From: Micromonospora terminaliae
GTDB taxonomy: Bacteria; Actinomycetota; Actinomycetes; Mycobacteriales; Micromonosporaceae
Length of the DNA: 64,000 nt
Direction: 5' to 3'
NCBI RefSeq assembly: GCF_009671205.1
Contig: NZ_CP045309.1
Location: forward strand, 5,412,001 to 5,476,000
Position numbers and translations under genes: made by a program. Shown here one piece after another: positions 1 to 17,582 of this stretch. A model generated the notes under the pieces. That model saw only the letters and a list, made by a program, of their open reading frames with translations, did no database searches and was not told the DNA's origin. Within the stretch, counting starts at the first letter, position 1. Each line of letters begins with the position of its first letter.

Positions 1-477
1 GACCTGCGTCTGGTGCACATCCTCCGCGATCCGCGCGGGGTGGCCTACTCCTGGAGCCAGGTCGTCGAGCTGCCCGAGGGCACCTCCACCAAGGGCCGGA
101 TGAACCAGCGCTCCGCCCGGCTGACCGCGCGGCGCTGGGTCACCGTCAACGCGATGATCTCGTCGCTCGCCCGGTCCGGCGTACCGCGGGTGGTCGTCCG
201 GTACGAGGACCTGGTCCGCGACCCGCGGAGCGAGCTGGGCCGGATCGCCGCCCTCACCGCCGACGTGACCGGGCAGGTCGATCCGCTGTCGTTCCTGCAC
301 GGCACCGAGTTCGAGCAGGCCGGCTCGCACGCGGTGGCCGGCGGACGGATCCGGATGCGCAGCGGGCCCATCGCGCTCAGCCTCGACGAGAAGTGGCGCC
401 GGGAGTACGCGCCGGGGCGCCGCCGGATGGTCGGCGCGATGACCTGGCCGCTGCGCCGGAGGTACGACTACCGCTGA
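1..477 (+). CDS. Sulfotransferase, C-terminal part (truncated by window edge)
   Basis: The reading frame is open from the first base and ends at TGA 475-477, so the N-terminus lies outside the window. The visible 158 residues begin with a beta strand followed by HILRDPRGVAYSW, the typical 3'-phosphate PAPS-binding element of sulfotransferases, and later show VVRYEDLVRDP, another hallmark of the family. The enzyme would move sulfate from PAPS to a hydroxyl or amino group of a carbohydrate or other acceptor. A second sulfotransferase lies at 7103-7963 in the same polysaccharide locus, so a sugar acceptor is likely. The missing N-terminus should hold the 5'-phosphosulfate loop. The family call is fairly sure; the substrate is inferred from context. 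Confidence 0.85.
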   Translation, partial: DLRLVHILRDPRGVAYSWSQVVELPEGTSTKGRMNQRSARLTARRWVTVNAMISSLARSGVPRVVVRYEDLVRDPRSELGRIAALTADVTGQVDPLSFLHGTEFEQAGSHAVAGGRIRMRSGPIALSLDEKWRREYAPGRRRMVGAMTWPLRRRYDYR

Positions 478-522
478 CCGGCCGGGTCCGGCGGCGGCCG
501 CGCGGCGGCCGCCGGACCCCGG

Positions 523-1470
523 TCAGGACCGGGCGGCCCCGGGGCTCGCCACGGCCGCCAGGTGGGCGTCGAGGACGTCGAGCAGTTCCGGGTTGCGCTC
601 GTAGTCGAACTTGCGGGCGAAGTGCGCGCCGCTGGCCAACGCCCTGGGCAGGTCCTCCGCGGTGAGCGACTTCGGGTGGTTGAACGAGCTGTTCCGGAAG
701 TCGAAGTAGCGCTTGCAGTCGGGCACCAGGTTGAACCGGTCCGCGCTGCACACGATGGTCTGGAAGACCGCCTCGACCGGGGAGAGGCAGTGCCGGAAGT
801 AGTCCACCACGTCCGGCCGCCGGTCGAAGTACTCCCGCAGGTAGGCCACGACCGGCCAGGTCAGCGACGAGAACGCCGACCCGCCGTGCAGCCGCAGGTC
901 GGGCCCGAACGGGGTGCGGGCCCGACGGCCCACCACCAGCCCGTACGACACGTGCACCCGCATCAACGGCTGGACCCGGTTGACGGCCTGCAGCGGGCGG
1001 AGCAGCTTCTTGGCCCGGGGGCTGAGGCCGCCCAGCCGGCGGTGCTGGAAGTGGTAGCGGGAGCGGACCCGGCTGCGCGGCCAGTGGCTCTCCGGACCGA
1101 ACGCGTCCCAGTACTCCATGAACCCGTCGGCCCCGGAGTCGACCAGCTCGGCCTCCGCCTGGTCGAGCGGACGGATCGGATAGTCCTGACCGGTGATGTT
1201 GACCAGCCAGTCGACCTGGACACCCTCGCCGTTCAGCCAGTCCACGGCCGCCATGTAGCGGTCGACGTGACTGAAGTCGCCGTAACCACCCTCGTGGTAC
1301 TGGACCGCCACGTCGGGTAATGTGCGCAGCTCGGCAAGGTCGAGCGGAGCCCCGTTCACATCGTGGCTGATGTGCACGATACTGTCCGGACTGTACCGCT
1401 TCACCGCGTGAACCAGCCTGGTCAGCTGCTCAGGTGAACGGTGACTCTGGATGTGATAGCAGAAGCGCAC
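523..1470 (-). CDS. GT14-type (core-2/I-branching) glycosyltransferase
   Basis: A 315-residue soluble protein resembling the core-2/I-branching beta-1,6-N-acetylglucosaminyltransferase family (CAZy GT14). The N-terminus (CYHIQSHRSPEQLTRLVHAV), the NITGQDYPIRP element near residue 92 and the GGSAFSSLTWPVVAYL stretch near residue 195 are typical of bacterial members. Such enzymes add a GlcNAc, xylose or similar branch to a glycan. The gene is convergent with the truncated sulfotransferase and divergent from the Wzz-like gene. The GTG start at 1470 is chosen because a GATAAT hexamer sits six bases upstream, which suggests leaderless transcription. Donor and acceptor are unknown. Confidence 0.85.
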   Translation of the reverse strand: MRFCYHIQSHRSPEQLTRLVHAVKRYSPDSIVHISHDVNGAPLDLAELRTLPDVAVQYHEGGYGDFSHVDRYMAAVDWLNGEGVQVDWLVNITGQDYPIRPLDQAEAELVDSGADGFMEYWDAFGPESHWPRSRVRSRYHFQHRRLGGLSPRAKKLLRPLQAVNRVQPLMRVHVSYGLVVGRRARTPFGPDLRLHGGSAFSSLTWPVVAYLREYFDRRPDVVDYFRHCLSPVEAVFQTIVCSADRFNLVPDCKRYFDFRNSSFNHPKSLTAEDLPRALASGAHFARKFDYERNPELLDVLDAHLAAVASPGAARS

Positions 1471-1476
1471 CCGTGC

Positions 1477-1482
1477 ATTATC
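1477..1482 (-). promoter_or_regulatory. -10 element (GATAAT) of the GT14 gene, leaderless
   Basis: On the minus strand GATAAT is followed by six bases and then the GTG start of the GT14 gene. This is the best match to a sigma-A -10 hexamer in the window, placed where transcription would begin at the start codon. No clear -35 is seen. Confidence 0.55.
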
Positions 1483-1625
1483 GTCCCCGGCACCCTGCGG
1501 GCAGAAGTGGCGGACCTTCGGCGACTTCCACTCTCCGCGCCGATCAGGGAGACTCAGGTTTCACCGTGGCGCGGACGTCCCACGGCTGACTGGCCGGTCC
1601 GGTCGAAAGGGAGCGACACACTTCG

Positions 1626-3431
1626 ATGCCCTCGCCTCACCACCCCGATCTGCGTCACGACGCGGACGGACCCACGCTGATGGCCTACCTCGAGTGGCTC
1701 CGCCGCCGATGGTGGATCCTGGCGCTCGCGGCCCTGCTCGGCATCGGCTCCGGCCTCCTCGTCACCCAGATGCAGACGCGCACCTACACCTCCACGACGT
1801 CGGTGCTGGTCCGCCAGGTGGGGCCGGACGCGGTCCCCGGCACCAAGGTCAACCTCGACACCGAGGCGCAGGTGGTCCGCTCCCTGGTGGTGGCCGAGCG
1901 GGCCCGCGCCCTGCTGAAGACCGGCACCGCCAGCGAGGACCTGGTCCGCTCGCTGACGGTCACCGTCCCACCGAACAGCCAGGTCCTCCAGATCGCGTAC
2001 GAGGGCACCACGCCGCAGGCGGCGCAGAACGGCTCGCACTCCTTCGCGCAGGCCTACCTCGACCTGCGGCTCGCCACGGCGACCAAGGCGGTGGAGAACG
2101 AGATCACCTCGATCAAACAGCAGATCGCCGAGGTCAACAAGGATCTGGCCGCGACCGCCGGCAAGATCGCTGCGGCTCCGGCCAACTCCGCCGCCCGGGC
2201 GCAGGCCGAGGCCAACCGGCAGGTCCTCACCAACCAGCTGACCCGGCTCAACGAGCGGCTCAGCCCGCTGCAGGACAACGCGCCCGACCCGGGCCAGATC
2301 ATCTCCGACGCGGCGCTGCCCCGGAAGCCCAGCTCGCCGAACCGCACGCTGAACCTGGCCAGCGGGATGGGCGCCGGCCTGCTCTTCGGCATCGTGCTGG
2401 CCCTGGTCCTGGACCGGCTCGACACCCGCGTCCGGCGGGGCCGGGACGTGACCGCCCGCACGGGCCTGCCGACGCTGCTGGAGCTCCCGGTCCGCGCACC
2501 GTCGCTGACCGTCCTGCCACCCGCCCACCGGGTCTCCCGTGAGCTCGGCCGGCTGCGCAACGTGCTGCTCTCGATCATGCCCGAGCCCCGTCCGGGTCGC
2601 GGTCGTCAACTGCTGCTCACGGACACCTCGCCCGGCCGGGCGGCCGGTTTCGTCGTCGGGAACCTGGCCGCCGCGTACGCCCGTACCGGTGCGCAGGTCG
2701 CGGTCGTCACCACCCGGGCCGACTCGCCGCTGACCGCCATGTTCGGCGGGCTGAAGCCCCGGCGCACCCTCGCCGACGTGCTGCGGCACGACGTCGGCGC
2801 GCTCGCCGCGCTCACCCCCGCGCCCGGTCTCAACACGCTGCGCCTCCTGCTGCCCGGCGACCTGGACACCGATGTGGAGCTGCCGGTCGCCAGCATGCTG
2901 ACGATCCTCAACGAGCTCGCCGACCGCTTCGACCACGTGCTGATCGAGACCGCCCGGCCCACCCAGGCCGTCGAGGCGCAGGCCCTGGCCCGGCACGTCG
3001 ACGGCGTCATCCTCGTCATCGAGAGCGGGCGGACCCGGAGCAGCGAGATCACCGCGGCCCTGCAGCAGTTCGAGCAGGTGGATGCGCCCGTGCTCGGCAG
3101 CGTGCTGGCACCCCGCCTGCCGGAGCAGGCCAGCGGTCCGGCTGCCACCGGAGGCGGCCAAGCGGACCGGAAGCCGTCTCCCCGCCCACGCCCGGAGCCC
3201 GCCTTCCGCCCGGGTGCGCAGCCGGCCAGTGACAGCACGATGATCCTGCCCCGGCCGGTCAGCCGTCCGGCGAGCACTCCGCCCAAGCCGGGCCCGAGCA
3301 CCGCCCAGCCCGCCACCGGCGCGGCCCGGCCGTCGCCGTCCACGGTCTATCGGTCCAAGCGCGAGCGCGACGGCGTCGACGGCCAGAGCCGGCTCTCGAT
3401 GGCCTTCGACCCCGTGGAGGACCAGGAGTGA
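1626..3431 (+). CDS. Wzz-type chain-length protein with degenerate BY-kinase-like domain
   Basis: A 601-residue polysaccharide co-polymerase. A membrane segment at about 30-46 and a second at about 241-264 flank a coiled, extracytoplasmic region with Wzz character; a proline-rich element (LPRKPSSP) precedes the second segment, as in Wzz proteins. The C-terminal half resembles the CapB/CpsD tyrosine-kinase fold, but the usual P-loop (G-x4-GKS/T) is replaced near residue 335 by TSPGRAAGF, the Walker-A'-like aspartates are not evident, and there is no tyrosine-rich tail; the last 100 residues are proline-rich and disordered. It probably controls polymer length with Wzy without being an active kinase. 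It opens a run of overlapping genes reaching to 9495. An AAGGGAG motif lies 12 bases before ATG. Confidence 0.85.
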   Translation: MPSPHHPDLRHDADGPTLMAYLEWLRRRWWILALAALLGIGSGLLVTQMQTRTYTSTTSVLVRQVGPDAVPGTKVNLDTEAQVVRSLVVAERARALLKTGTASEDLVRSLTVTVPPNSQVLQIAYEGTTPQAAQNGSHSFAQAYLDLRLATATKAVENEITSIKQQIAEVNKDLAATAGKIAAAPANSAARAQAEANRQVLTNQLTRLNERLSPLQDNAPDPGQIISDAALPRKPSSPNRTLNLASGMGAGLLFGIVLALVLDRLDTRVRRGRDVTARTGLPTLLELPVRAPSLTVLPPAHRVSRELGRLRNVLLSIMPEPRPGRGRQLLLTDTSPGRAAGFVVGNLAAAYARTGAQVAVVTTRADSPLTAMFGGLKPRRTLADVLRHDVGALAALTPAPGLNTLRLLLPGDLDTDVELPVASMLTILNELADRFDHVLIETARPTQAVEAQALARHVDGVILVIESGRTRSSEITAALQQFEQVDAPVLGSVLAPRLPEQASGPAATGGGQADRKPSPRPRPEPAFRPGAQPASDSTMILPRPVSRPASTPPKPGPSTAQPATGAARPSPSTVYRSKRERDGVDGQSRLSMAFDPVEDQE

Positions 3432-4423
3432 GGCTTCGACGGGCTCTCGCGGCGTCGGCCGCGGGGGTGCTGATCGCGACGCTGGGTGCCGCCTGCTCCG
3501 AGCCACCGCCCCCGGGCGCGAGCGACCTGGTCGATCCCGGTACCCCCGCGCCGAAGCCCACCCCGACGCCCAGCCTGCCGGCGGGGCCGCTCTCCGGACA
3601 GCCGCTCACCCAGCCGGCCGTGGCCGGCCGGCAGGCGATCGCGGTGCCGATCCGGGTGAGCGAGTCCGGCACCCCGGCCGGGCTCGACGCGGCGGACCTG
3701 GTCTACCAGGAGTTCGCCGAGTCGGGCAGTCTGCACCTGAGCGCGGTCTACCAGTCGCGCGACGCGACGAAGATCGGCCCGGTCGCCGAAGTCCGGCCGG
3801 TCGACATCCGCAGCGTGGGGGTGCTCCACCCCTGGCTCGGCTACGCGGGCGGTCCCACCGGCTTCGTCAACCAGCTCGCGGCCGCCAACCTCAGCGGCGT
3901 CACGCCGGCGCAGCGCAGCGCCGCCTTCCCGAGCGGATACACCTCGACCACCGCGCTCCGTGCGGCCGCGCCGAAGGGCGGCACCGCCCCGGCCCCGCTG
4001 TTCGACTACGCCACCACGGGCACGCCGCTGGCCACCCGGGACGTCACGGCCGCCGGCAAGCTCACCGTCTCCGCGTCCGGCCATCCCACCCAGACCTGGA
4101 CGTACGACCAGGCGACCCAGCAGTGGTCGGGGCGGGTCGGCAAGACCACGGTGAAGGCCTCCGCGGTCGTCGTGCTCACCATGGAGTACCGGACGCTGAC
4201 CGTCCGTAAGCCCAGCGTGCGGTCGCTGCCGAGCGCCAATGTCTACGGCAAGGGCAAGGCCCTGGTCGTGTCCGGGCCGTCGAGCGCCAAGGCGGAGTGG
4301 AGCAAGCCGGGACAGAAGCTCGTCTGCAACGTCACCGATCTGGCCGGGTACCAGATCCGGCCGCAGCCGGGCACCACGTGGGTGATCTACGCACCGACCA
4401 CGGCTCGGGTAGCGGTCACATGA
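3428..4423 (+). CDS. DUF3048 (YerB-like) lipoprotein
   Basis: A 331-residue exported protein with an N-terminal signal and lipobox (LGAACSE), then a proline-rich linker (about 30-60) and a body matching the DUF3048/YerB pattern: a repeat of VYQEFAESG, DATKIGPVAEVRPVDI near residue 115 (the R-I/K-G-P-V-R-S-A-R family motif, here changed to KIGPVAEVRP), and a C-terminal domain ending in a GTTWVIYAP strand, typical of the family. Function in the family is unknown. GTG at 3428 overlaps the stop of the Wzz-like gene (GTGA), so translation is probably coupled. Placement in the polymer operon suggests a role at the outer face of the membrane in assembly or wall attachment; this is inference. Confidence 0.8.
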   Translation: MRLRRALAASAAGVLIATLGAACSEPPPPGASDLVDPGTPAPKPTPTPSLPAGPLSGQPLTQPAVAGRQAIAVPIRVSESGTPAGLDAADLVYQEFAESGSLHLSAVYQSRDATKIGPVAEVRPVDIRSVGVLHPWLGYAGGPTGFVNQLAAANLSGVTPAQRSAAFPSGYTSTTALRAAAPKGGTAPAPLFDYATTGTPLATRDVTAAGKLTVSASGHPTQTWTYDQATQQWSGRVGKTTVKASAVVVLTMEYRTLTVRKPSVRSLPSANVYGKGKALVVSGPSSAKAEWSKPGQKLVCNVTDLAGYQIRPQPGTTWVIYAPTTARVAVT

Positions 4424-5880
4424 AGACGCTCGTCCCGCTCCAGCCCTCGCGGCCGGAGCCGGTGCCGAGGGGTACGGTCCCGACGGGCACGTCGGCGGGC
4501 GCGGCCCGCCGCCGGCGGCTACCGACCGCGTGGCCGCTGACCGCGCTCTTCGTGCTCTATCCGGTGTGGTGGGCGCTCGGCCTGCCCTCGTTCATCTTCG
4601 CCATCCTCGCCGTGCCGATGGCGCTCCAGCTGCGCAAGCGCGATCGCATCCGGGTGCCGCCCGGGTTCGGATTCTGGCTCATCCTGCTCGCCTGGGTCGT
4701 GCTCTCCGGGCTGATGCTGGACATCACCGCACCGAACACGCTGACCCCGGACGGTTTCGGCCGGTACATCGGCTGGGGCATCCGGGTGATGAACTACACC
4801 GCGCTGACCGTCGCCATGCTCTACGTGCTCAACCTGAGCGAGAAGGAACTGCCCCGGATCCGGATGCTGCGGCTCTTCGGGTTCCTGGCCGTGGTCACCG
4901 TGATCGGCGGGTACGTCGGGGCGCTGCTGCCCGACCTGAAGTTCACCGCTCCGCTCAACTACCTCCTGCCCGACGTCGTCGCCCACGAGCCGTTCGTCAA
5001 CCGGCTGATGCACGTCGAAGTCGCCCAGGTGCAGGAGGTGCTGGAGGGCGAGGCCAGTTCGCCGCGTCCCGCCGCCCCCTTCGAGTACACGAACACCTGG
5101 GGCGAGAACATGGGCATCCTGCTCGTGTGGTTCCTCGTCGGCTGGGTGGTGTACGGCCGGGGGTGGCGCCGGCTCGGCGGGTACCTGGTGGCGGCCGCCG
5201 CGATCTTCCCCATCGTCTTCTCACTCAACCGCGGTCTCTGGATCGGCCTGGTCATCGCCGCCGTCTACGTCGCGCTGCGGCTGGCGCTGCGCGGGCGGAT
5301 CGCCGTCCTCGCCGGGATGGCGCTGGCCACCGCGCTGGCCGGAGTCCTGGTGCTGGCGTCGCCGCTGGGCGGGCTGCTCGACGAGCGGATGCAGAACGGG
5401 CACAGCGACGAGATCCGGGCCACCCTGTCCAGCGGGGCGGTCGAGGCGGCCAGGCACTCCCCGGTGCTGGGCTACGGCGCCAACCGGGCGCTGATCGGCA
5501 GCAACCGGTCGATCGCGATCGGCAAGTCGGCCGACTGCAAGCAGTGTGGCAACCGCGAGCTGGGCAGCAACGGGCAGGTCTGGAACCTGCTCGTGGGGCA
5601 GGGCTGGGTCGGCGCCTTCTGCTACAGCGCGTTCTTCCTCTGGTGCCTGTGGCGGTTCCGGCGGGACAACACCCCCATCGGCATCGCCGGCAGCGTGGTG
5701 CTGATCCTGATGCTGTTCTTCCAGTTCCTCTACGGCGCGCTCAACACCACGCTGGCGTACGGCCTGATCAGCGTGGCGGTGCTGGCCCGCAACGACCGGC
5801 ATCTCCGCGCGCTGCGCCGGGAGGCGCTGGCCGCGGCGGAGTCCGCCGAATCGACCGACCGACCGGAACGGACCCGCTGA
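4420..5880 (+). CDS. O-antigen ligase/polymerase-type (Wzy) membrane protein
   Basis: A 486-residue integral membrane protein with roughly ten to twelve hydrophobic segments and a large extracytoplasmic loop, matching the Wzy_C/O-antigen ligase (WaaL-like) superfamily. The stretch SPVLGYGANRALI and the loop rich in charged residues before it correspond to the conserved region of this family, where an arginine and a histidine are used for chain transfer. Expected job: joining undecaprenyl-linked repeat units, or transferring the chain to an acceptor, outside the membrane. The ATG at 4420 overlaps the TGA of the lipoprotein gene (ATGA) and gives a normal cytoplasmic N-terminus; an upstream in-frame ATG at 4297 lies inside that gene and is rejected. 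The loop carries a CKQC motif near residue 375 that could bind metal or form a disulfide. Confidence 0.87.
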   Translation: MKTLVPLQPSRPEPVPRGTVPTGTSAGAARRRRLPTAWPLTALFVLYPVWWALGLPSFIFAILAVPMALQLRKRDRIRVPPGFGFWLILLAWVVLSGLMLDITAPNTLTPDGFGRYIGWGIRVMNYTALTVAMLYVLNLSEKELPRIRMLRLFGFLAVVTVIGGYVGALLPDLKFTAPLNYLLPDVVAHEPFVNRLMHVEVAQVQEVLEGEASSPRPAAPFEYTNTWGENMGILLVWFLVGWVVYGRGWRRLGGYLVAAAAIFPIVFSLNRGLWIGLVIAAVYVALRLALRGRIAVLAGMALATALAGVLVLASPLGGLLDERMQNGHSDEIRATLSSGAVEAARHSPVLGYGANRALIGSNRSIAIGKSADCKQCGNRELGSNGQVWNLLVGQGWVGAFCYSAFFLWCLWRFRRDNTPIGIAGSVVLILMLFFQFLYGALNTTLAYGLISVAVLARNDRHLRALRREALAAAESAESTDRPERTR

Positions 5881-7106
5881 TGACCGCAACCCCACGCGTC
5901 GATGACGCGCGCGCGGCGTACCTGCCCGAGCTGGCCGCCGTGGTCTGGCCCGAACCGGCCGGCCCGACCCTGCGCCGCGGCGGCGCCGGCTACGCCGTGG
6001 TGCCCTCGGCCGCGCGGCCGCGGCTGCTGGTGCCCGCCGGCTCCCGGCGGGCCGCGGCCAGTGCGGTCCGGCACTCGACGGAAGCGGTGGGTACGAAGGC
6101 CCGGCTGCGCCGGTCACTGCTGGCCACGGCGTTCCGCACCGGCGTCGGCCGGATCGCCTTCCGGGATCGCCTGCTGGTCGGGGCGACCGAGGGGACGCTG
6201 GAGGAGCACCTGAGCGAGGTGCTCGGCCGCCCGGCGTTGCTGAGCGTCCACATCGGTCCGGCCCGGGCCAACCGCAAACCGGTGATCCAACTGCTCGACG
6301 ACCGGGGCCGGCCGCTGGGGTACGCCAAGCTGGGTGTGGACCGGCTCACCCGCGGCCTGGTCGACGCGGAGGCCGAGGTCCTGCGCCGGCTTGCGGCCGT
6401 CGACCTGCCCGGAATCGTGGTGGCCGAGGTGTTGCACCACGGCGGCTGGGGCGAGCACGCCCTGCTCGTGCAGAGTGCGCTCCCCGTGGAACTGCCCCGG
6501 GCGGCGCCTTCGGTGGCCGCCGAGCGGGAGCGTGCGGCGATGGTCGCGGTCAGCCGCTGCCTGGGCGTCGACCGCCGGCCCTTCGCCGGCAGCGGGTACG
6601 CCGAGCGGCTCGCCGCCGAAGTCCAGGCGCTGGGTGACCGGCCGGAGACGGGCCGGCTGCACGCGGTCCTGGCGACCGTGCTCGGGCTGGACCCGACCGT
6701 CGACCTCGGTGCCTGGCACGGCGACTGGAACGGTGGCAACAGCGCGGCGCTGGCCGACGGACGGGTGCTCATCTGGGACTGGGAGCGGTTCGCGGCGGGC
6801 GTGCCGGTCGGCTACGACGCGCTGCACCGACGGCTCCAGACGGCGATCACCAAGGCCGGGGTGGAGCCGACGACGGCGGCCCGCGAGTTGCTGGCCGGGG
6901 CGGCCGTGACGCTGGCGCCGTTCGCGCCGCCGGCCGGCACCGAGGACCTGGTGGCGGTGCTCTACCTGGTCGAACTGGCCGCGCGCTACCTGCGCGACCG
7001 ACAGGCCGAGGCGGGCGCCCGGCTGGGACACGTGGCCGCCTGGCTGTTGCCGGCGGTGGAGGATCACCTGGCCGCCCGGCCGGGTGCGGGAGGAGTGGCG
7101 AAATGA
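5880..7106 (+). CDS. APH-fold phosphotransferase (aminoglycoside phosphotransferase family)
   Basis: A 408-residue soluble protein. The C-terminal lobe has the kinase-like catalytic loop HGDWNGGN at about residues 280-287 and the metal-binding IWDWERF at about 298-304, the classic HxD...N and D-x-E arrangement of APH/choline-kinase-type phosphotransferases. The N-terminal 100 residues are a separate, less recognisable domain. ATG 5880 overlaps the previous TGA (TGATG), so it is part of the polymer operon. In this setting it more likely phosphorylates a sugar, a lipid-linked intermediate or a polymer modification than an antibiotic. Substrate is unknown. The much longer open frame upstream is antiparallel noise inside the polymerase gene. 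Confidence 0.8.
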   Translation: MTATPRVDDARAAYLPELAAVVWPEPAGPTLRRGGAGYAVVPSAARPRLLVPAGSRRAAASAVRHSTEAVGTKARLRRSLLATAFRTGVGRIAFRDRLLVGATEGTLEEHLSEVLGRPALLSVHIGPARANRKPVIQLLDDRGRPLGYAKLGVDRLTRGLVDAEAEVLRRLAAVDLPGIVVAEVLHHGGWGEHALLVQSALPVELPRAAPSVAAERERAAMVAVSRCLGVDRRPFAGSGYAERLAAEVQALGDRPETGRLHAVLATVLGLDPTVDLGAWHGDWNGGNSAALADGRVLIWDWERFAAGVPVGYDALHRRLQTAITKAGVEPTTAARELLAGAAVTLAPFAPPAGTEDLVAVLYLVELAARYLRDRQAEAGARLGHVAAWLLPAVEDHLAARPGAGGVAK

Positions 7107-7963
7107 CGCTGGCCAAGGCTCAGGCGCGACGGGCCGTGCGCTCGGTGACGCGGACGGTCGGCAGGTGGACGGCGGGCTCGCGGCTGACCCCCGACTTCCT
7201 CATCGTGGGCGCCCAGCGTTGCGGCACGACGTCGCTGTTCAAGACGCTCTCCCAGCACCCGGCCGTGCTGCCGGCGGTCTACCACAAGGGCGTCCACTAC
7301 TTCGACACCGGCTACGACCGGGGCATGGACTGGTACCTCGGGCACTTCCCCACGGTGCGCCGGGCCGAGGCGGTGCGGGAGAAGCTCGGTGTGCGCGGGG
7401 TGACCGGCGAGTCGAGCCCGTACTACATGTTCCACCCGCTGGCCGCGGACCGGATCGCCGCCGAGCTACCCGCGGTCCGGCTGCTGGTGCTGCTGCGCGA
7501 CCCGGTGGAGCGGGCGTACTCGGCGCACGCGCACGAGTCGGCCCGGGGTTTCGAGAGCGAGCCGTTCGAGCGGGCCCTCGAGCTGGAGCAGAGCCGCATC
7601 GCCGGTGAGCGGGAGCGGCTGCTCGCCGACCCGACCGCGCACAGCCACCACTACCAGCACAACGCCTACCTGACCCGCGGGCAGTACATCGAGCAGCTGG
7701 AGCGACTGGAGTCGATCTTCGGTCGGGAGCGGCTGCACGTGATCGACGCCGACGACTTCTTCGCCGACCCGCGGCCGTCCTTCGACGCGGTCTGCGACTT
7801 CCTCGGCCTGCCGCACTGGGCGGACATCTCGTTCGGCAAGCACAACTCGCGGTCCCGCTCGCCCATGGACCCGGAGTTGCGCGACCGGTTGGAGGCGCAC
7901 TTCACCCCGTACGACGAGCGACTGGCCGCCTGGTGGGGACGCGTACCGTCGTGGCGACGGTAA
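7103..7963 (+). CDS. PAPS-dependent sulfotransferase (heparan-sulfate type)
   Basis: A 286-residue sulfotransferase with both PAPS-binding elements: the 5'-phosphosulfate loop GAQRCGTTSLF (about 37-46) and the 3'-phosphate element RDPVERAYSAHAHE (about 133-146). The ordering, the KGVHYFDTGYDRGMDWY segment and the length match bacterial relatives of heparan sulfate N/O-sulfotransferases. ATG 7103 overlaps the TGA of the phosphotransferase gene, and the flippase gene overlaps its end, so all three are co-translated. It would sulfate a sugar in the repeat unit before export. No PAPS synthesis genes are seen in the window. The family call is strong; the polysaccharide substrate is inferred from neighbours. 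Confidence 0.9.
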   Translation: MTLAKAQARRAVRSVTRTVGRWTAGSRLTPDFLIVGAQRCGTTSLFKTLSQHPAVLPAVYHKGVHYFDTGYDRGMDWYLGHFPTVRRAEAVREKLGVRGVTGESSPYYMFHPLAADRIAAELPAVRLLVLLRDPVERAYSAHAHESARGFESEPFERALELEQSRIAGERERLLADPTAHSHHYQHNAYLTRGQYIEQLERLESIFGRERLHVIDADDFFADPRPSFDAVCDFLGLPHWADISFGKHNSRSRSPMDPELRDRLEAHFTPYDERLAAWWGRVPSWRR

Positions 7964-9495
7964 CGCCCACCCGGGCGGCGGGCACCGAGCTGGGCGGGGC
8001 CGCCCGGCACGGGGTGCTGAACCTGCTCGGCGTGGCGGTGGCCGCGATCACCGGCTTCGGGCTGAACATCGTGGTCACCCGTGGTTGGTCCATGGCGGAC
8101 GCGGGCCTGTTCTTCGCCGCCACCAGCGCCTTCATGATCGCGTACGCGGCCGCCCGGCTCGGCACGGGCGTCGGCTCCGTCTACTTCATCAGCCGGTACC
8201 GGGCGCTCGGGCAGCCGGAACGGATCCGGGCCTCGGTGCTGGTCGGGCTGCTTCCGCTGCTGTTGGTGGCTGTCGTGCTCGCGGTGGCCGGCTGGCTGCT
8301 CACCCCGCAGGTCGTCGAGCTGACCTTCGCCGATCCGGTCCCCGGCGCGGTGCCGGCGCTCCGTGCGCTGCTGCTCTTCGTACCGCTGGCCGCGCTCTGC
8401 GACTTCGCGCTGGCCGCCTGCCGGGGCTTCGGCAAGATGCGCCCGCTGCTGCTGATCGAGCGGCTCGGACGCAACGTGCTGCAGCTGCTCGCCGTGCTGC
8501 TGGCCGCGGTGCTCGGCCTCTCCGCCACCACGGCGTTGCCGCTGGCCTGGGCGCTGCCGTACGTGCCGGCCGCGCTCGCCGCCGCGATCTGGCTGGCCCG
8601 GCTGGTCCGGCGTGCGGAACGCGGTGCCGGACCGGAACGCCCACGGCCGGTCGGGTGGCGGGAGGAGTTCGGCCCGTACTGGCGGTACAGCGGGCCACGG
8701 GCGCTGAGCGGCCTCGCCCAGATGGTGGTGCAGCGACTCGACATCGTCCTGCTGGGCGCGCTGCGCGGGCTCTCCGAGGCGGCGCTCTACACCGCGGCCA
8801 CCCGGTTCCTGACCCTCGGCCAGCTCTCCGGTCAGGCCCTGTCCACCGCCGTCCAGCACCGGCTGGCGGAGCATCTGGCCCGCGAGGACCGGGCCGCGGC
8901 CGGACGCCTCTACCAGGCCGCGACCGGTTGGCTGGTGCTGCTGACCTGGCCCATCTACCTGCTGTTCGCGTCGTTCGCCGGCCCCATGCTGGCCCTGTTC
9001 GGCTCCGGCTACGACACCGGACGGACGGTCACCGTCTACCTGGCCCTGATGATGCTGGTCGCCACCGGTTGCGGCATGGTCGACACGGTGCTGAACATGG
9101 CCGGGAAGACGGCCTGGACGTTCTACAACGCGCTCTCCGGCACCGTGGTCAACGTGGTCGCCAACGTGCTGCTCATTCCCCGCTACGGCATCATGGGTGC
9201 GGCGGTCGCCTGGTCCGCCTCCATCCTGATCACCAATCTCGTGCCGCTGTTCCAGTTGCACCGGGCGTTCCGGCTGCATCCGTTCGGGCCGGGCACACTC
9301 ACCGGGGCCGGGCTGGCGCTGGCCTTCTTCGGGGTGCCGTCGCTGCTGCTGCACGCGTTCACCGACCCGGGGGTGCTGGCCCTGCTGGTGGTCGCCGTGC
9401 TGGGTGCCGGCGGCTACGCCGCGGCGGCCTGGCGACTTCGTGGGGTGCTCCAGCTCGACACCCTGCGGACGCTGCGACGCAGCCGGAGGCGATGA
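7933..9495 (+). CDS. Polysaccharide flippase (Wzx/MOP superfamily)
   Basis: A 520-residue membrane protein with about 12-14 hydrophobic segments and no soluble domain, matching the MOP superfamily of lipid-linked oligosaccharide flippases (Wzx, MviN-like). Features include the early segment LLGVAVAAITGFGLNIVVTR and the central SGPRALSGLAQMVVQRLDIV element, typical of polysaccharide biosynthesis family transporters. It would flip undecaprenyl-linked repeat units so that the Wzy protein at 4420-5880 can polymerise them. The GTG at 7933 lies 31 bases inside the sulfotransferase gene; GTG 7951 is an alternative start. It closes the overlapping gene run that begins at 1626. Confidence 0.88.
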   Translation: MGTRTVVATVTPTRAAGTELGGAARHGVLNLLGVAVAAITGFGLNIVVTRGWSMADAGLFFAATSAFMIAYAAARLGTGVGSVYFISRYRALGQPERIRASVLVGLLPLLLVAVVLAVAGWLLTPQVVELTFADPVPGAVPALRALLLFVPLAALCDFALAACRGFGKMRPLLLIERLGRNVLQLLAVLLAAVLGLSATTALPLAWALPYVPAALAAAIWLARLVRRAERGAGPERPRPVGWREEFGPYWRYSGPRALSGLAQMVVQRLDIVLLGALRGLSEAALYTAATRFLTLGQLSGQALSTAVQHRLAEHLAREDRAAAGRLYQAATGWLVLLTWPIYLLFASFAGPMLALFGSGYDTGRTVTVYLALMMLVATGCGMVDTVLNMAGKTAWTFYNALSGTVVNVVANVLLIPRYGIMGAAVAWSASILITNLVPLFQLHRAFRLHPFGPGTLTGAGLALAFFGVPSLLLHAFTDPGVLALLVVAVLGAGGYAAAAWRLRGVLQLDTLRTLRRSRRR

Positions 9496-9564
9496 CCGAC
9501 GGCCCGACACGACGTCGAGTCACCGGCACGGCCGGTGGCATGAGCACGGGGAGGCACGGAAACG

Positions 9565-10608
9565 ATGAAGTGGGTCCATAGCTCGGCGGCACTCCTGATG
9601 GGATCGGTACTCGCCCTGACGGCCTGTCAGGGGGAGGCGCCCGCACCCCTCACACCGGCCCCGGCCGGCAGCGCGACCGCACCGGTCCAGCCCCGGCCCG
9701 CCAACGGCCTGGAGACCACCGGACGGGGCCCGGAGATGCCGGCGCGAGGCGCCTGGCTCGGCGCCTGGGTGAAGCCGGACTGGCAGACGCCCGACGGGCG
9801 GGTCAACGCCCTGACCTCGTTCGGCGAGCAGACCGGCGGCAAGGTGGCCCTGGCCCACATGTTCCACGAGTGGGAGGACGAGTTCCCCGGCCCGACCGAA
9901 CACGCGATCCAGGCGGCCGGAATGCTGCAGATGATCTCGTGGTCCGGTGCCGACACCCGGTCGATCACGGACGGCGTGTACGACCAGCTGATCCGGCAGC
10001 GCGCCAAGGAGATCAAGGACTTCGGGGTCCCGCTGCTGCTGCGCTGGCGGTGGGAGATGGATCGGCCCAACCTGCGCCAGAGCGTCCGCTCGCCCGAGGA
10101 CTACGTGGCCGCGTGGAAGCACATCCGGGCCATCTTCACCGAGGTGGGGGCGACGAACGCCGCCTGGGTCTGGTGCCCGCACGTGCTCGGCTTCGTCGAG
10201 TCCGACCGGAACGCCGCCGCCTACTACCCCGGCGACGACCAGGTCGACTGGCTGTGCACGGACGTCTACCCGGGTAAGGACTACGCCGGCTTCGCCGAGC
10301 AGATGGACAGCTTCATGGCCTTCGCCCGGGAGCGGCCGCGGCCGGTGCTGATCGGCGAGTTCGGCGTCACCCATGACGGCGGGCCGGGCCAGCGGGCCGC
10401 GTGGCTGCGCGAGGCGCACACCTACGTGAAGCGGCACCCCCAGATCAAGGCGGTGGTGTACTTCGCGGCCAAGCAGACCAAGGGAACCGCGTACGACAGC
10501 ACCTTCGACGACGACCCGGAGGGCCTGGCCGCGTACCGCGAGCTGGCCGCGGACCCGTACTTCTCGGCACCCGTGCCGACTGCCACGCCGGGGGGCCCGG
10601 TGAGCTGA
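9565..10608 (+). CDS. GH26-like secreted glycoside hydrolase (lipoprotein)
   Basis: A 347-residue lipoprotein: signal peptide with lipobox LTACQ at about 17-21, a proline/alanine linker, then a (beta/alpha)8 hydrolase resembling GH26 beta-mannanases. The proton donor is expected at E164 in RWRWEMD and the nucleophile at E265 in LIGEFG; the WVWCPHV strand between them is also typical. It is anchored to the outer face of the membrane and could trim or release the exopolysaccharide made by the upstream genes, or degrade external mannan or related glucans. A GGGGAGG ribosome site precedes the ATG. It lies 70 bases after the flippase gene and on the same strand, so co-transcription is plausible. 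Confidence 0.83.
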   Translation: MKWVHSSAALLMGSVLALTACQGEAPAPLTPAPAGSATAPVQPRPANGLETTGRGPEMPARGAWLGAWVKPDWQTPDGRVNALTSFGEQTGGKVALAHMFHEWEDEFPGPTEHAIQAAGMLQMISWSGADTRSITDGVYDQLIRQRAKEIKDFGVPLLLRWRWEMDRPNLRQSVRSPEDYVAAWKHIRAIFTEVGATNAAWVWCPHVLGFVESDRNAAAYYPGDDQVDWLCTDVYPGKDYAGFAEQMDSFMAFARERPRPVLIGEFGVTHDGGPGQRAAWLREAHTYVKRHPQIKAVVYFAAKQTKGTAYDSTFDDDPEGLAAYRELAADPYFSAPVPTATPGGPVS

Positions 10609-10826: not shown

Positions 10827-13800
10827 GTGCTAACTCTTCCAGCGATCACGCGCCGATCGTTCGCGCTGGTCACCGCCACCTTCCTCGGCGTCGGTGGCGT
10901 GCTGTCGGCCAGCCCCGCGCTCGCCGCACCGGGCCACGAGACCGTGGTCAGCAGCGAAACTTCCAGCAACACGCCGAACATCATGGACGGCACGGTCTTC
11001 GCCATCCACGACGCCGGCAGCAAGGTGATCGCGGGTGGGTCCTTCACCCAGGTGCGCAACCGGAACAAGTCGGCTGACATCGACCGCAACAAACTGCTGG
11101 CCTTCGACAAGGCCACGGGCACTGTCGACGAGGCGTTCGCGCCCGTGCTCGACGGCGACGTGCTGGCGATCATCGCGGGCCCCACCGCCGGGACGGTCTA
11201 CATCGCCGGCGACTTCAACACCGTCAACGGGGTCAACCGCCGGAAGCTGGCGCTGCTCAACGTCGCCGACGGCTCGCTGGTCACCACCTTCAAGGGGCCG
11301 GCCTTCAACGGCCTGGTCAACGACATCGCCAAGGTCGGCGACCGGCTGCTGGTGGGCGGCATCTTCAGCAAGATCGGCACCGACGTCGTCCGCAACGGGG
11401 TGGCGTCGATCAACGCCAACACCGGCGCGCTGGACGACTACCTCACCGTCGCCCTGACCGAGAACCACAACTGGACCCCGGGCAGCACCGGTGTCGCCAA
11501 GGCCGGTGTGGGAGCCGAGAAGCTCGCCGTGTCGCCGGACGAGAAGCAGCTGGTCGTCATCGGCAACTTCAAGAAGGCCAACGGCGTCGTCCACGACCAG
11601 ATCGTCCGGATCAACCTGGGCGACAGCACGGCCACCATCGCGGACTGGAACACCGACAGCTACTCGGGCGCCTGCAAGTACAGCGCGTTCGACTCGTGGG
11701 TACGCGACGTGCAGTTCGCCCCCAGCGGCAAGTACTTCGTCGTGGTGACCACCGGCGCGTCCTACCCGGGCACGCTCTGCGATTCCGCGGCCCGGTGGGA
11801 GACCGCCGCCACCGGTGACGGGCAGAAGCCCACCTGGACCAACTTCAGCGGCGGCGACACCTTCCTCTCCACCGGCATCAGCGAGGAGGCGGTCTACGTC
11901 GGCGGCCACTTCCGCTGGGCGAACAACCCGCTCGCTCGCGACCAGGCCGGCCCCGGCGCGGTGCCGCGGCCCAGCATCGCGGCCCTCGACCCGGCCAGCG
12001 GCCTGCCGCTGGCCTGGAACCCGGGCCGCAACCCGCGCGGCTACGGCGTGACCGAGATGCTGGTCACCCAGGAGGGCCTCTGGATCGGCAGCGACCAGGA
12101 CTACATCGGCGACCGCGAGTTCCTGCGCAAGAAGATCGCGTTCTTCCCGCTGGACGGCGGCAACGCGCCGCACTCCACCAGCACGAAGGGCCTGCCCGGC
12201 AACGTCTACCAGGCCGGCCGTGCCGCGCAGAGCGAGGTGCTCTACCGGGTCAACGCCGGTGGTCCGGCGATCCCGGCGACCGACGGCGGTCCGGACTGGT
12301 CCGCCGACAGCGCCGCCGCGCCCAGCCCGTACCACAACAGCGGCAGCAGCGTCTCGGCCTACACCACCAACGCGACGTTCGACGCCACGGTGCCGGCGAG
12401 CACGCCCGCCACGCTGTTCAACACCGAGCGCTGGGACCAGGCGACCGCGCCGGACATGCAGTGGGACATCCCGATCGCGGCCGGCACCCGGGTCGACGTG
12501 CGCCTCTACCTGGCCAACCGGTACGCCACGACCGGCACGGTGGGTAAGCGCAAGTTCGACGTCAGCATCGACGGCGTGCTCAAGCTGAACGACTTCGACC
12601 CGGTGGCGGGCGCCGGCGGCACGGACCGCGGCACCATGCGGTCCTTCTCGGTGGTCAGCGACGGCGTGATCGACGTCGACTTCGGTCGCGTACTGGAGAA
12701 CCCGCTCGTCCAGGGCATCGAGGTCGTCAAGACCGCGCCCACGCCGGACGCCGCTGACGTGCTCTACCGGGTCAACGCGGGTGGCGACCAGCTGGCCGCG
12801 CCGAGCGGCCCGGCCTGGGCCACCGACAGCCTGGCGGCGCCGAGCACCTACCACAACACCGGCAACACCGTCTCGACCTACACCACGAACGCGGCGCTCG
12901 ACGCCACCGTTCCGGCCGGCACCCCGGTCGCGCTGTTCAACAGCGAGCGCTGGGACGAGTCGACCACGCCGGACATGCAGTGGGACTTCCCCGTCCCGGC
13001 GGGCACCCCGATCCAGGTGCGGCTCTACCTGGCCAACCGGTACGCGGGCACCGCCACGGCCGGCAAGCGCAAGTTCGACGTCAGCATCGACGGCGTGCTC
13101 AAGCTGAACGACTTCGACCCGATCGCCTCGATCGGTGCCACCAACAAGGGCACCATGCGGGCCTTCGCGCTCACCAGCGACGGCAACGTCGACATCGACT
13201 TCGGTCGCGTGCTGGAGAACCCGCTGGTCCAGGGCATCGAGATCGTCAAGCTCCCGCCGGTGCCGCCGGCCACCACGGTGGACAGCATCACCACGCGGAC
13301 GTACGACGGCGCCACCGCGGTGGGCGACGCGACCACGGTCGCCAACCCGGACAACACCGCGTGGTCCACGGTGAAGGGCGCCTTCTGGGTCGGCGGTGAC
13401 CTGTTCTACGGCGTCAACGGCGACCTCTACAAGCGCTCGTTCGACGGCACGGCCTTCGGCACCCCGAAGAAGCTCGACCCGTACCACGACGCCAAGTGGG
13501 ACCTGGTCCTCACCGGCTCCGCGCCGGAGGGCCAGACCTACGCGGGCCGGACGGTCAACTTCGCCGCCGAGCTGCCGAACGTGACCGGCATGTTCTACAG
13601 CAGCGGCCGCATCTACTACACGCTGGCCAACCAGAGCGCCCTGTTCTGGCGCGGGTTCGCGCCCGACACCGGCACCGTCGGGGCCGAGCGGACCACCATC
13701 GCCGACACCAACGGCTACGGCGGCGTGGGTGGCATGTTCCTCAGCGACGGCAAGCTCTACACGGTGAGCCGGAACAACGGCAACCTGTACGTCCGGGACT

Positions 13801-13898
13801 GGTCCGCGGGCGCACCGGCCAACAGCGCCACGCTGGTCAGCGGTCCGACCGTGGACAAGGTGGACTGGCGGGCCACCGCCGTCTTCGTCGGCCCGTGA
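10827..13898 (+). CDS. Large secreted protein with propeller-like N-terminus and two malectin domains
   Basis: About 1023 residues. GTG 10827 is chosen because CGGAG lies six bases upstream and translation then begins directly with a signal peptide holding a twin-arginine-like ITRRSFAL motif and an ALA-A cleavage site; the open frame upstream lacks signal character. The N-terminal 460 residues contain repeated strands such as VIAGGSFTQV, VYIAGDFNTVNG and LLVGGIFSKIG, as in delta-60/PQQ-type propellers. Two malectin domains follow (about 471-637 and 645-808) and are near-duplicates. The C-terminus has a further repeat-rich beta domain. No sortase or membrane anchor is seen. It probably binds carbohydrate in the wall or matrix, perhaps the polymer of this locus. 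Confidence 0.8.
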   Translation: MLTLPAITRRSFALVTATFLGVGGVLSASPALAAPGHETVVSSETSSNTPNIMDGTVFAIHDAGSKVIAGGSFTQVRNRNKSADIDRNKLLAFDKATGTVDEAFAPVLDGDVLAIIAGPTAGTVYIAGDFNTVNGVNRRKLALLNVADGSLVTTFKGPAFNGLVNDIAKVGDRLLVGGIFSKIGTDVVRNGVASINANTGALDDYLTVALTENHNWTPGSTGVAKAGVGAEKLAVSPDEKQLVVIGNFKKANGVVHDQIVRINLGDSTATIADWNTDSYSGACKYSAFDSWVRDVQFAPSGKYFVVVTTGASYPGTLCDSAARWETAATGDGQKPTWTNFSGGDTFLSTGISEEAVYVGGHFRWANNPLARDQAGPGAVPRPSIAALDPASGLPLAWNPGRNPRGYGVTEMLVTQEGLWIGSDQDYIGDREFLRKKIAFFPLDGGNAPHSTSTKGLPGNVYQAGRAAQSEVLYRVNAGGPAIPATDGGPDWSADSAAAPSPYHNSGSSVSAYTTNATFDATVPASTPATLFNTERWDQATAPDMQWDIPIAAGTRVDVRLYLANRYATTGTVGKRKFDVSIDGVLKLNDFDPVAGAGGTDRGTMRSFSVVSDGVIDVDFGRVLENPLVQGIEVVKTAPTPDAADVLYRVNAGGDQLAAPSGPAWATDSLAAPSTYHNTGNTVSTYTTNAALDATVPAGTPVALFNSERWDESTTPDMQWDFPVPAGTPIQVRLYLANRYAGTATAGKRKFDVSIDGVLKLNDFDPIASIGATNKGTMRAFALTSDGNVDIDFGRVLENPLVQGIEIVKLPPVPPATTVDSITTRTYDGATAVGDATTVANPDNTAWSTVKGAFWVGGDLFYGVNGDLYKRSFDGTAFGTPKKLDPYHDAKWDLVLTGSAPEGQTYAGRTVNFAAELPNVTGMFYSSGRIYYTLANQSALFWRGFAPDTGTVGAERTTIADTNGYGGVGGMFLSDGKLYTVSRNNGNLYVRDWSAGAPANSATLVSGPTVDKVDWRATAVFVGP
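12237..12730 (+). repeat. Intragenic malectin repeat, copy 1
   Basis: Coding repeat with period 522 bases (174 codons) relative to the copy starting at 12759. Both copies contain identical stretches such as VLYRVNAGG, KRKFDVSIDGVLKLNDFDP and FGRVLENPLVQGIE, with near-identical DNA, so this is a recent or gene-converted duplication. Confidence 0.85.
12759..13252 (+). repeat. Intragenic malectin repeat, copy 2
   Basis: Second copy of the 522-base unit. It differs from copy 1 mainly in surface loops (for example AATGA versus ATSIG-type substitutions around the Asp-Pro turn) while the core strands are unchanged. Confidence 0.85.
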
Positions 13899-15798: not shown

Positions 15799-16530
15799 AT
15801 GATCGGGATGGTGCTCGCCGCCGGTGCGGGGCGCCGGCTGCGCCCGTACACCGACACCCTGCCCAAGGCCCTGGTGCCGGTCGACGGGGAGACCACCATC
15901 CTCGACATCGCGCTGCGCAACCTCGCCGAGGTCGGGCTGACCGAGGTCGTGATCGTGGTGGGGTACGCCGCGGACGCCGTCCGGCAGCGGCAGGCCGCGC
16001 TGGAGGAGAAGTACGGCGTCACGATCACCCTCGTCCACAACGACAAGGCCGAGGAGTGGAACAACGCGTACTCGCTCTGGCTGGCCCGGGAGCACTTCTC
16101 CCGCGGCGTGCTGCTGGTCAACGGCGACACCGTGCACCCGGTGAGCGTCGAGAAGACCCTGCTGGCCGAGCGTGGCCCGGGCATCCTGCTGGCCATCGAC
16201 AACATCAAGGCGCTGGCCGAGGAGGAGATGAAGACCACCTTCGACGCGGCCGGCCAGCTCACCCGGATCACCAAGCTCATGGACCCGGGCGAGGCGTACG
16301 GGGAGTACATCGGCGCGACGCTGATCGAGCCGCAGGTGGCCGAGGCGCTGGCCGACGCCCTGGAGGCGACCTGGCGGCGCGACCCGAACCTCTACTACGA
16401 GGACGGCTACCAGGAGTTCGCCGACCGGGGCGGCGAGGTGCGGGCCGCGCCGATCGGCGACGTCTCCTGGGTCGAGGTCGACAACCACGCCGACCTGGCC
16501 CGGGCGCGGGAGATCGCGTGCCGCTACTAG
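15799..16530 (+). CDS. Sugar/alcohol-phosphate nucleotidyltransferase (LicC/phosphocholine cytidylyltransferase-like)
   Basis: A 243-residue protein with the nucleotidyltransferase signature MVLAAGAGRRLRPYTDTLPK at residues 4-23 and further family elements (VVGYAAD, LLVNGDTVHP with the metal-binding aspartate, WVEVDNHADLARA at the end). This end motif is characteristic of the LicC-like branch that activates phospho-alcohols with CTP. It heads an overlapping three-gene set with a glycerol-1-phosphate dehydrogenase-like gene and a CDP-alcohol phosphotransferase, which supports formation of a CDP-alcohol. Start: ATG 15799 with GAAGAGG eleven bases upstream; GTG 15766, six bases after a TATCCT hexamer, is an in-frame leaderless alternative adding eleven residues. 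Confidence 0.82.
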   Translation: MIGMVLAAGAGRRLRPYTDTLPKALVPVDGETTILDIALRNLAEVGLTEVVIVVGYAADAVRQRQAALEEKYGVTITLVHNDKAEEWNNAYSLWLAREHFSRGVLLVNGDTVHPVSVEKTLLAERGPGILLAIDNIKALAEEEMKTTFDAAGQLTRITKLMDPGEAYGEYIGATLIEPQVAEALADALEATWRRDPNLYYEDGYQEFADRGGEVRAAPIGDVSWVEVDNHADLARAREIACRY

Positions 16531-17582
16531 CCCGGACGATCCTCACCCCGCTGCACATCGACGTGCGGCGCGGTGCGGTGGCCGACCTCGCCGCGATCCT
16601 GGCCGACGGGCGGATCTCCGCCGGCGGCGACGTGGCGGTGGTGGTCGGCCCCGGGCAGGGCGAGCAGATCGCCGAGCTGCTGCGCCCCTCGCTGCGGTCG
16701 GCGGACCTGTTCACGGTGGCCGGCGGCTCCCTGGACGCCGCCGACGACCTGGGCGCGAAGCTACGCAACCGGTCGTACGACGCGGTGGTGGGCATCGGCG
16801 GCGGCAAGACCATCGACGTGGCGAAGTACGCGGCGACCCGGCGCGGCCTGCCCATGGTCACCGTGGCGACGGCCCTGGCCAACGACGGCATCGCCTCGCC
16901 GGTGGCCAGCCTGGTCACCGAGGGCATCAAGGGTTCCTACGGGGTGCACATCCCGATCGCCGTGATCGTGGACCTGGACTTCGTCGAGGCGGGGCCGGAG
17001 CGGCACAACCGGGCCGGCATCGGCGACGTGGTGAGCAACATCAGCGCCCTGGCCGACTGGGAGCTGGCCCGGCAGGTCCGCGGGGAGCCGGTCGACGGGC
17101 TGGCCGCCTCGCTGGCCCGGATGGGAGCCGAGGCGGTGCTCGCCCACCGGGGCGACATGAGCGACGACGGCTTCGTCACGGTGCTGGCCGAGGCGCTGAT
17201 CTCCACCGGGCTGGCCATGGCGGTCTGCGGCACCAGCCGACCGGCCAGCGGCGGCTGCCACGAGATCATGCACGCGATCGACTCGCTCTACCCGGGCACG
17301 GCGTCGCACGGCGAGCTGGCCGGCCTGGGCGCGTTGTTCTGCACCTTCCTCCGGGGGGACGAGCGCCGGCTCACCGAGATGTCGGCCTGCCTGGCCCGGC
17401 ACGGCCTGCCCCGGCTGCCCGCCGACGTGGGCCTGACCGACGAGCAGTTCGTGGAAGCCGTGCAGTTCGCCCCGGCCACCCGACCGGACCGCTACACCAT
17501 CCTCGAACACCTGGCGATGTCGCCTACCGAGACCCGGGAGCGGCTGGCAGACTACGCCGGTGCACTCCGCGACCTTGGCTGA
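16518..17582 (+). CDS. Glycerol-1-phosphate dehydrogenase-like / iron-containing alcohol dehydrogenase
   Basis: A 354-residue protein of the dehydroquinate synthase/iron-containing ADH fold. The nucleotide-binding element VGIGGGKTIDVAKYAA (about 93-108) and the metal-site histidines in GGCHEIMHAID and GTASHGELAG match the AraM/EgsA glycerol-1-phosphate dehydrogenase branch better than ordinary alcohol dehydrogenases. Such enzymes reduce dihydroxyacetone phosphate to sn-glycerol-1-phosphate. GTG 16518 overlaps the cytidylyltransferase end by 13 bases, and the next gene overlaps its end by 23. A glycerol-phosphate product would be a sensible substrate for the upstream cytidylyltransferase. Other polyols are possible. 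Confidence 0.8.
   Translation: MPLLARTILTPLHIDVRRGAVADLAAILADGRISAGGDVAVVVGPGQGEQIAELLRPSLRSADLFTVAGGSLDAADDLGAKLRNRSYDAVVGIGGGKTIDVAKYAATRRGLPMVTVATALANDGIASPVASLVTEGIKGSYGVHIPIAVIVDLDFVEAGPERHNRAGIGDVVSNISALADWELARQVRGEPVDGLAASLARMGAEAVLAHRGDMSDDGFVTVLAEALISTGLAMAVCGTSRPASGGCHEIMHAIDSLYPGTASHGELAGLGALFCTFLRGDERRLTEMSACLARHGLPRLPADVGLTDEQFVEAVQFAPATRPDRYTILEHLAMSPTETRERLADYAGALRDLG

Follow-up and report, generated by a model that had tools for sequence, protein, structure and literature searches.

A conserved Wzx/Wzy-type locus in Micromonospora that probably makes a sulfated heteropolysaccharide

Here we analyzed a window of 64,000 nucleotides (positions 5412001-5476000 of contig C1) from a Micromonospora genome of 6.74 Mb, in which a polysaccharide locus reaches across the left edge. 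Judged from its predicted products, this locus quite likely makes a sulfated heteropolysaccharide by the Wzx/Wzy route. The proposal draws on what can be read in the DNA itself, namely the genes, their motifs, their conserved order, their linkage to sulfate activation and an adenosine 5'-phosphosulfate (APS)-reductase signature in carrier genomes.

The locus extends from about L006:12267 (window -5733) to window 13898, where L006 denotes the upstream DNA and an L006 position equals the window position plus 18000. It encodes three sulfotransferases (ST1, ST2 and ST3), Wzz, Wzy and Wzx, an APH-fold kinase, glycosyltransferases, two GH26-like proteins, a malectin-domain protein and a CysQ-like protein. 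The left part changes strand three times and ends with an unassigned protein, while the right part, from Wzz to the malectin-domain protein, lies wholly on the plus strand:

L006:12267-13082, plus strand, CysQ-like protein, above the cut-off of the Inositol_P Pfam family
L006:13183-14334, plus strand, second GH26-like protein (GH26b), under the Pfam cut-off
L006:14345-15259, minus strand, GT2 glycosyltransferase
L006:15256-16227, minus strand, ST3, a sulfotransferase by profile match
L006:16215-16808, minus strand, PssE-like glycosyltransferase
L006:16805-17164, minus strand, PssD/Alg14-like glycosyltransferase
L006:17554-18477 (window -446 to 477), plus strand, ST1, a sulfotransferase of 307 amino acids (Sulfotransfer_3, 51.7 bits), starting 447 bases ahead of the window edge; window 1-477 is its C-terminal half
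523-1470, minus strand, possible glycosyltransferase, with no Pfam or NCBIfam match up to E 0.01 and found in only some relatives
1626-3431, plus strand, Wzz-like chain-length protein with a C-terminal tyrosine-autokinase-like domain
3428-4423, plus strand, DUF3048 protein, with a lipobox-like N-terminus by eye
4420-5880, plus strand, Wzy-like polymerase (Wzy_C, 33.6 bits, cut-off 31.7)
5880-7106, plus strand, APH-fold kinase by predicted model
7103-7963, plus strand, ST2, heparan-sulfate-type sulfotransferase (Sulfotransfer_3, 51.9 bits, cut-off 27)
7933-9495, plus strand, Wzx/MATE-like flippase
9565-10608, plus strand, GH26-like protein (27 bits, cut-off 20.2), with a lipobox-like N-terminus by eye and candidate catalytic Glu residues within RWEMD and IGEFG
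10827-13898, plus strand, malectin-domain protein, probably carbohydrate-binding, with a signal-peptide-like N-terminus by eye and a DUF5122-like stretch

The preliminary description of this DNA had counted two sulfotransferases, at 1-477 and 7103-7963. Both are confirmed by profile, and ST3 brings the total to three. Its run of Wzz-like, Wzy-like and GH26-like genes is likewise present, with the corrections that DUF3048 stands between wzz and wzy and that the locus extends further both ways. The overlaps it saw around ST2 hold: kinase and ST2 share ATGA, and the called Wzx start lies 31 bases within ST2. Further overlaps join Wzz to DUF3048 (GTGA), DUF3048 to Wzy (ATGA) and Wzy to the kinase (TGATG). 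Genome-wide, three of four Sulfotransfer_3 matches and all three Sulfotransfer_1 matches fall in the locus; the fourth Sulfotransfer_3 protein (L007:7856-8710) is far from it, 0.7 kb past the end of a 2371-residue open frame. The autokinase-like C-terminal half of Wzz may be a degenerate tyrosine kinase, since by eye it seems to have no normal Walker A motif (TDTSPGRAAGF).

ST2 carries the 3'-phosphoadenosine 5'-phosphosulfate (PAPS) loop GAQRCGTTS, Glu103 and Arg132/Ser140. Structure comparison places its fold, PAPS loop, catalytic Glu and 3'-phosphate Arg/Ser as in the animal enzymes heparan sulfate 3-O-sulfotransferase (3-OST) and N-deacetylase/N-sulfotransferase (NDST), a likeness that applies to ST2 only among the three; the catalytic residues are those that we take to act in 3-OST and NDST. 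ST2 differs from these enzymes in being bacterial, in lacking a transmembrane span and in sharing only 26-30% identity over the aligned part. The preliminary description had proposed that the completeness of the PAPS pocket be checked, and the loop and catalytic positions proved intact in all 80 named ST2 copies.

One alternative, which we regard as unlikely, is that the sulfotransferases act on a lipid-linked intermediate, another envelope glycolipid or a small molecule, so that the exported polymer is free of sulfate. The non-cyanobacterial sulfotransferases that the available part of PMC8205485 names, from rhizobia and mycobacteria, are described there as acting on lipo-oligosaccharides, and the best sequence match of both ST1 and ST3 is a polyketide synthase (PKS)-domain structure, 4gox, at weak E values of ~4e-4 and 1e-3. 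However, ST2 folds like oligosaccharide sulfotransferases and occurs together with Wzy and Wzx, and a unit sulfated ahead of Wzx would polymerise with its sulfate. By predicted fold, the ST2 acceptor leans towards an oligosaccharide rather than a lipid or small molecule, and the lipid or small-molecule acceptor that the preliminary description had named as its refuting alternative is not favoured. A small-molecule sulfotransferase as the principal reading of ST2 was rejected on the gap in Z of the fold comparison. A relation of ST3 to nodulation NoeE, suggested by one weak NCBIfam match (17.7 bits against 500), was not used.

To analyze the conservation of the locus, relatives were selected by ST2 alone, so the other genes found beside it are independent findings. 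Forty family regions were hand-picked to span genera and identity classes rather than drawn at random, and a scan of named genomes gave 570 confirmed ST2 relatives, of which the best 80, some stopping at contig ends, are the named loci. Homologues of Wzz, Wzy, Wzx, the kinase and ST2 lie within 20 kb in 39 of the 40 family regions; thus the wzx/wzy linkage, whose absence from relatives had been set beforehand as a refuting test, is conserved. In the exception, L076, ST2 adjoins a PAPS synthase gene only. By tblastn, the order Wzz-Wzy-kinase-ST2-Wzx is kept in 35 of the 40, some with DUF3048 between Wzz and Wzy. Among the best 80 of the 570, the kinase gene is directly ahead of ST2 in 77; also present are Wzy (76 loci), Wzx (75), Wzz (72), a further sulfotransferase (62) and GT2 (60). 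In the relatives, HMM labels distinguish poorly between ST1 and ST3 and between GH26a and GH26b. Because the identical order recurs in relatives, the arrangement is not due to chance.

At E up to 1e-3, ST2 has a match, sometimes a weak one, in 183 of the 200 family genomes. Among the matches listed, 134 genomes besides the window's own carry ST2 of at least 50% identity, a close version is present in nine of the 38 genomes of the window's genus group (its own included), and among named genomes Micromonospora sp. MA102 has the closest ST2 (97%). By record title, the carriers include Micromonospora, Catellatospora, Dactylosporangium, Actinomadura, Thermomonospora, Streptosporangium, Planomonospora, Geodermatophilus, Blastococcus, Nocardiopsis, Phycicoccus and an uncultured member of the Solirubrobacterales. 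The named genera spread over several orders. Across the phylum, 81 of 396 sampled genomes have an ST2 profile match at E up to 1e-15, many of them distant. Over 110 loci, the correlation between the pairwise distances of ST2, the kinase, Wzy and Wzx is 0.89-0.94. Joint inheritance as a unit would give such values, and shared ancestry alone would also raise them.

A sulfated polysaccharide from such a cluster is not a new idea, as it is in print for one species. The wps-1 cluster of Actinoplanes missouriensis (AMIS_7280-7390), described by Tezuka and Ohnishi in June 2026 (PMC13390465), encodes WpsK (Wzz), WpsJ (Wzy), the kinase-like WpsI, the heparan-sulfate-type sulfotransferase WpsH and WpsG (Wzx), together with WpsE (GH26) and a second sulfotransferase, WpsB, next to the GT2 protein WpsA. 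The window locus contains the same run, from the WpsK to the WpsG equivalent, with DUF3048 inserted, as well as a second sulfotransferase beside GT2 (L006:14345-16227) and a GH26 gene (the WpsE equivalent at 9565-10608). Compared by order alone, family member L065 keeps the wps-1 gene arrangement except for wpsD. In contrast, the window locus has a PssD/PssE-type pair in place of the GT26 protein WpsC, and no GT26, methyltransferase (WpsF) or DUF4262 was found among the scanned cluster genes of the window, whereas GT26 and methyltransferase are present in L065. It further differs in its extra ST1, DUF3048, malectin-domain, second GH26-like and CysQ-like genes and in a PAPS synthase gene that is not adjacent. 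We filed it as a variant sharing the wps-1 core, not an identical cluster, because the core is common and the accessory genes differ; its orthology rests on gene order and L065-type relatives, and the fetched loci include no named A. missouriensis record. In the main text of PMC13390465, we found no mention of homologues, orthologues, conservation, Micromonospora or Micromonosporaceae, and no other paper on the window locus was found by title or abstract start, in a search that left most subscription papers and preprints outside.

According to the main text of PMC13390465, wps-1 is transcribed during sporangium formation and needed for it, and all of its genes except wpsD are needed for normal sporangia, with mild effects of wpsB and wpsE and a severe phenotype on wpsH deletion. 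It could be argued from this that the cluster is specifically a sporangium-matrix system and a leftover in Micromonospora, and several carrier genera are named for sporangia, such as Dactylosporangium and Streptosporangium. We consider this distinctly improbable. The five core genes are complete in 18 of 22 named Micromonospora loci, the other four being contig-end loci, and all five are present in Phycicoccus, Pseudokineococcus and Blastococcus. To our knowledge, none of these four genera forms sporangia, and the ST2 motif residues are kept in all of their copies.

The demonstrated example of a Wzx/Wzy sulfated polysaccharide is synechan, a polymer shown to contain sulfate (PMC8205485). Likened by description, the xss cluster of Synechocystis PCC 6803 also combines Wzx, Wzy and a co-polymerase with two sulfotransferases of distinct subfamilies. 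It differs in lying on a cyanobacterial plasmid and in having eight glycosyltransferases and its own regulators, and the available part of PMC8205485 mentions neither a kinase-sulfotransferase pair nor a sulfate-activation gene. PMC12691653, as far as its available part goes, deals with a separate imp cluster. Among bacteria, sulfated polysaccharides have been called exclusive to cyanobacteria, or uncommon elsewhere (available parts of PMC8205485 and PMC13390465).

The supply of PAPS is often linked to the locus. In a sample of 103 genomes with both APS kinase and ST2 among the matches listed (rows copied by hand), the APS kinase lies no more than 15 kb from ST2 in 59, whereas the expectation per genome is about 0.4%; these span 20 genus groups, and the genomes are not independent. 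In 42 of the 59, it is the sole APS kinase of the genome among the matches listed. A bifunctional ATP sulfurylase/APS kinase is encoded directly upstream of wzz in L065, and within the fetched DNA of the best 80 loci, an APS-kinase/PAPS-synthase gene is present in 22, a CysQ-like gene in 10 and either in 32.

We then compared the reductases of the window genome and of 30 relatives picked from the 42 whose sole APS kinase is linked. All 31 have the CCxxRKxxPL signature, and 30 also have SxGCxxCT in that frame; the exception is L212, where the gene reads in two frames. Both motifs mark APS reductases rather than PAPS reductases, as stated in the available part of PMC3125206. Of the two PAPS_reduct-family proteins in the window genome, one is of cysH type and bears the two-cysteine APS-reductase signature, and the other, by eye, is of cysD type and lies beside cysN. 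As all 31 genomes have an APS-type reductase, PAPS should not be required for assimilation; because the reductases carry APS-type motifs, PAPS is probably made for sulfation.

These observations bear on another explanation, that the polysaccharide is an ordinary one, acidic or neutral, with sulfotransferase-fold proteins that are only structural or are inactive remnants, and with a nearby APS kinase that serves sulfur assimilation. In its favour, our literature search found no sulfate chemistry, and an APS-kinase match occurs in all 200 family genomes, including those where ST2 is missing. The reductase motif does not settle the matter either, since the available part of PMC3125206 treats Chromobacterium violaceum, which has both this motif and CysC, as ambiguous. 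However, the APS-type reductases, the PAPS-loop and catalytic positions kept across divergent ST2 copies and the severe wpsH deletion phenotype in A. missouriensis (main text of PMC13390465) all speak against it, and we judge it very improbable.

Several points weigh against a sulfated product. For wps-1, the authors propose a sulfated polymer and say in the main text that verification is needed, with sulfate measurement still to come, and a wpsB deletion mutant looks normal under the microscope and releases roughly ten times fewer spores (PMC13390465); our literature search found no sulfate or phosphate measurement for such a polymer. In 44 of the 103 genomes, ST2 has no APS kinase within 15 kb (in 41 of these it lies beyond 20 kb or on another contig, possibly in part through assembly breaks), and the window genome's only APS kinase, 77% identical to the L065 protein, is 736 kb from ST2. 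APS kinase without an ST2 match in 17 of the 200 family genomes implies other or more general uses of PAPS. The best NCBIfam match of the CysQ-like protein, TIGR01331, reaches 98.2 bits against a cut-off of 228.8; a second CysQ-like frame (L180:494-1324), by eye directly before cysD/cysN, was also seen in the window genome. Among the matches listed, 29 of the 38 genus-group genomes have a weaker ST2 match only (E 1e-56 to 1e-66), and four such regions (L077-L080; ST2 identity 42-45%) have the core genes in a different order, with no ST3 call within the fetched DNA. Finally, no initiating enzyme was recognised in the cluster. A candidate lies 7 kb downstream of it:

20894-22405, plus strand, exopolysaccharide (EPS) polyprenyl glycosylphosphotransferase (TIGR03025 above cut-off, 396.6 bits)

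This gene is one of five Bac_transf matches in the genome, and the genes after it encode a histidine kinase and a LytTR response regulator. Between it and the locus, three plus-strand genes (15799-18282) encode a nucleotidyltransferase, a glycerol-1-phosphate-dehydrogenase-like protein (253 bits against a cut-off of 413) and a CDP-alcohol phosphatidyltransferase, and resemble a pathway to an unusual phospholipid or polyol phosphate.

We then propose a model for the locus, in which we infer the acceptor, the order of the steps, sulfate in the final polymer and phosphate. Cytoplasmic glycosyltransferases (GT2, the PssD/PssE pair and perhaps others) would assemble the repeat unit on undecaprenyl pyrophosphate. 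ST2, with the associated ST3 and ST1, would move sulfuryl groups from PAPS onto this unit in the cytoplasm, and the kinase encoded immediately upstream of ST2 would phosphorylate the unit or a sugar precursor. Wzx would then flip the unit, Wzy would polymerise it under Wzz control, and the GH26-like lipoproteins and the malectin protein would trim or hold the polymer outside. PAPS would come from the bifunctional ATP sulfurylase/APS kinase, a cluster member in many relatives that is located elsewhere here; instead, the edge of the window locus has a putative CysQ-like 3'-phosphoadenosine 5'-phosphate phosphatase gene. The repeat-unit sulfation put forward in the preliminary description is supported, and sulfation is probably right.

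The kinase gave no Pfam family match up to E 0.1. Its predicted model has the APH fold assigned to it earlier, with intact motifs: the ATP Lys, the HxDxxxxN loop and the metal Asp, with Lys150, Glu164, His280-Gly-Asp282, Asn287, Asp300 and Glu302 conserved. Phosphate decoration of the polymer is a guess from this co-conserved kinase and its motifs. Choline kinases figure among the fold matches. Phosphorylcholine decoration by a LicA-like kinase is not favoured, as the cluster genes include no recognisable choline cytidylyltransferase; with the unassigned nucleotidyltransferase and CDP-alcohol phosphatidyltransferase genes lying 2-4 kb beyond the cluster, it is kept as a lesser possibility.

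Together, the recurrence of this arrangement in many relatives suggests that actinomycetes make sulfated polysaccharides. What is new here is the breadth of the locus, the kinase-sulfotransferase pairing, the linkage to PAPS synthesis, the APS-reductase argument and an explanation for AMIS_7390. Deletion of this sulfate adenylyltransferase/APS kinase gene, a neighbour of the wps genes, was severe, which the authors called unexpected and linked to sulfur amino acids (main text of PMC13390465); a linked PAPS supply would give a reason for the sporangium defect. More tentatively, and at less than even odds in our view, actinobacteria of several orders might share an ancestral glycosaminoglycan-like system, in which a paired kinase and heparan-sulfate-type sulfotransferase put phosphate and sulfate on a lipid-linked unit before Wzx export, PAPS synthase serves sulfation rather than assimilation, and the sporangium matrix represents one specialised use. 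With a conserved locus and a linked PAPS supply in actinobacteria, what was one unverified Actinoplanes cluster becomes a testable trait of many genera. Should the polymer prove to be sulfated, both heparan-type sulfotransferases and sulfated polymers could be obtained from tractable soil bacteria.
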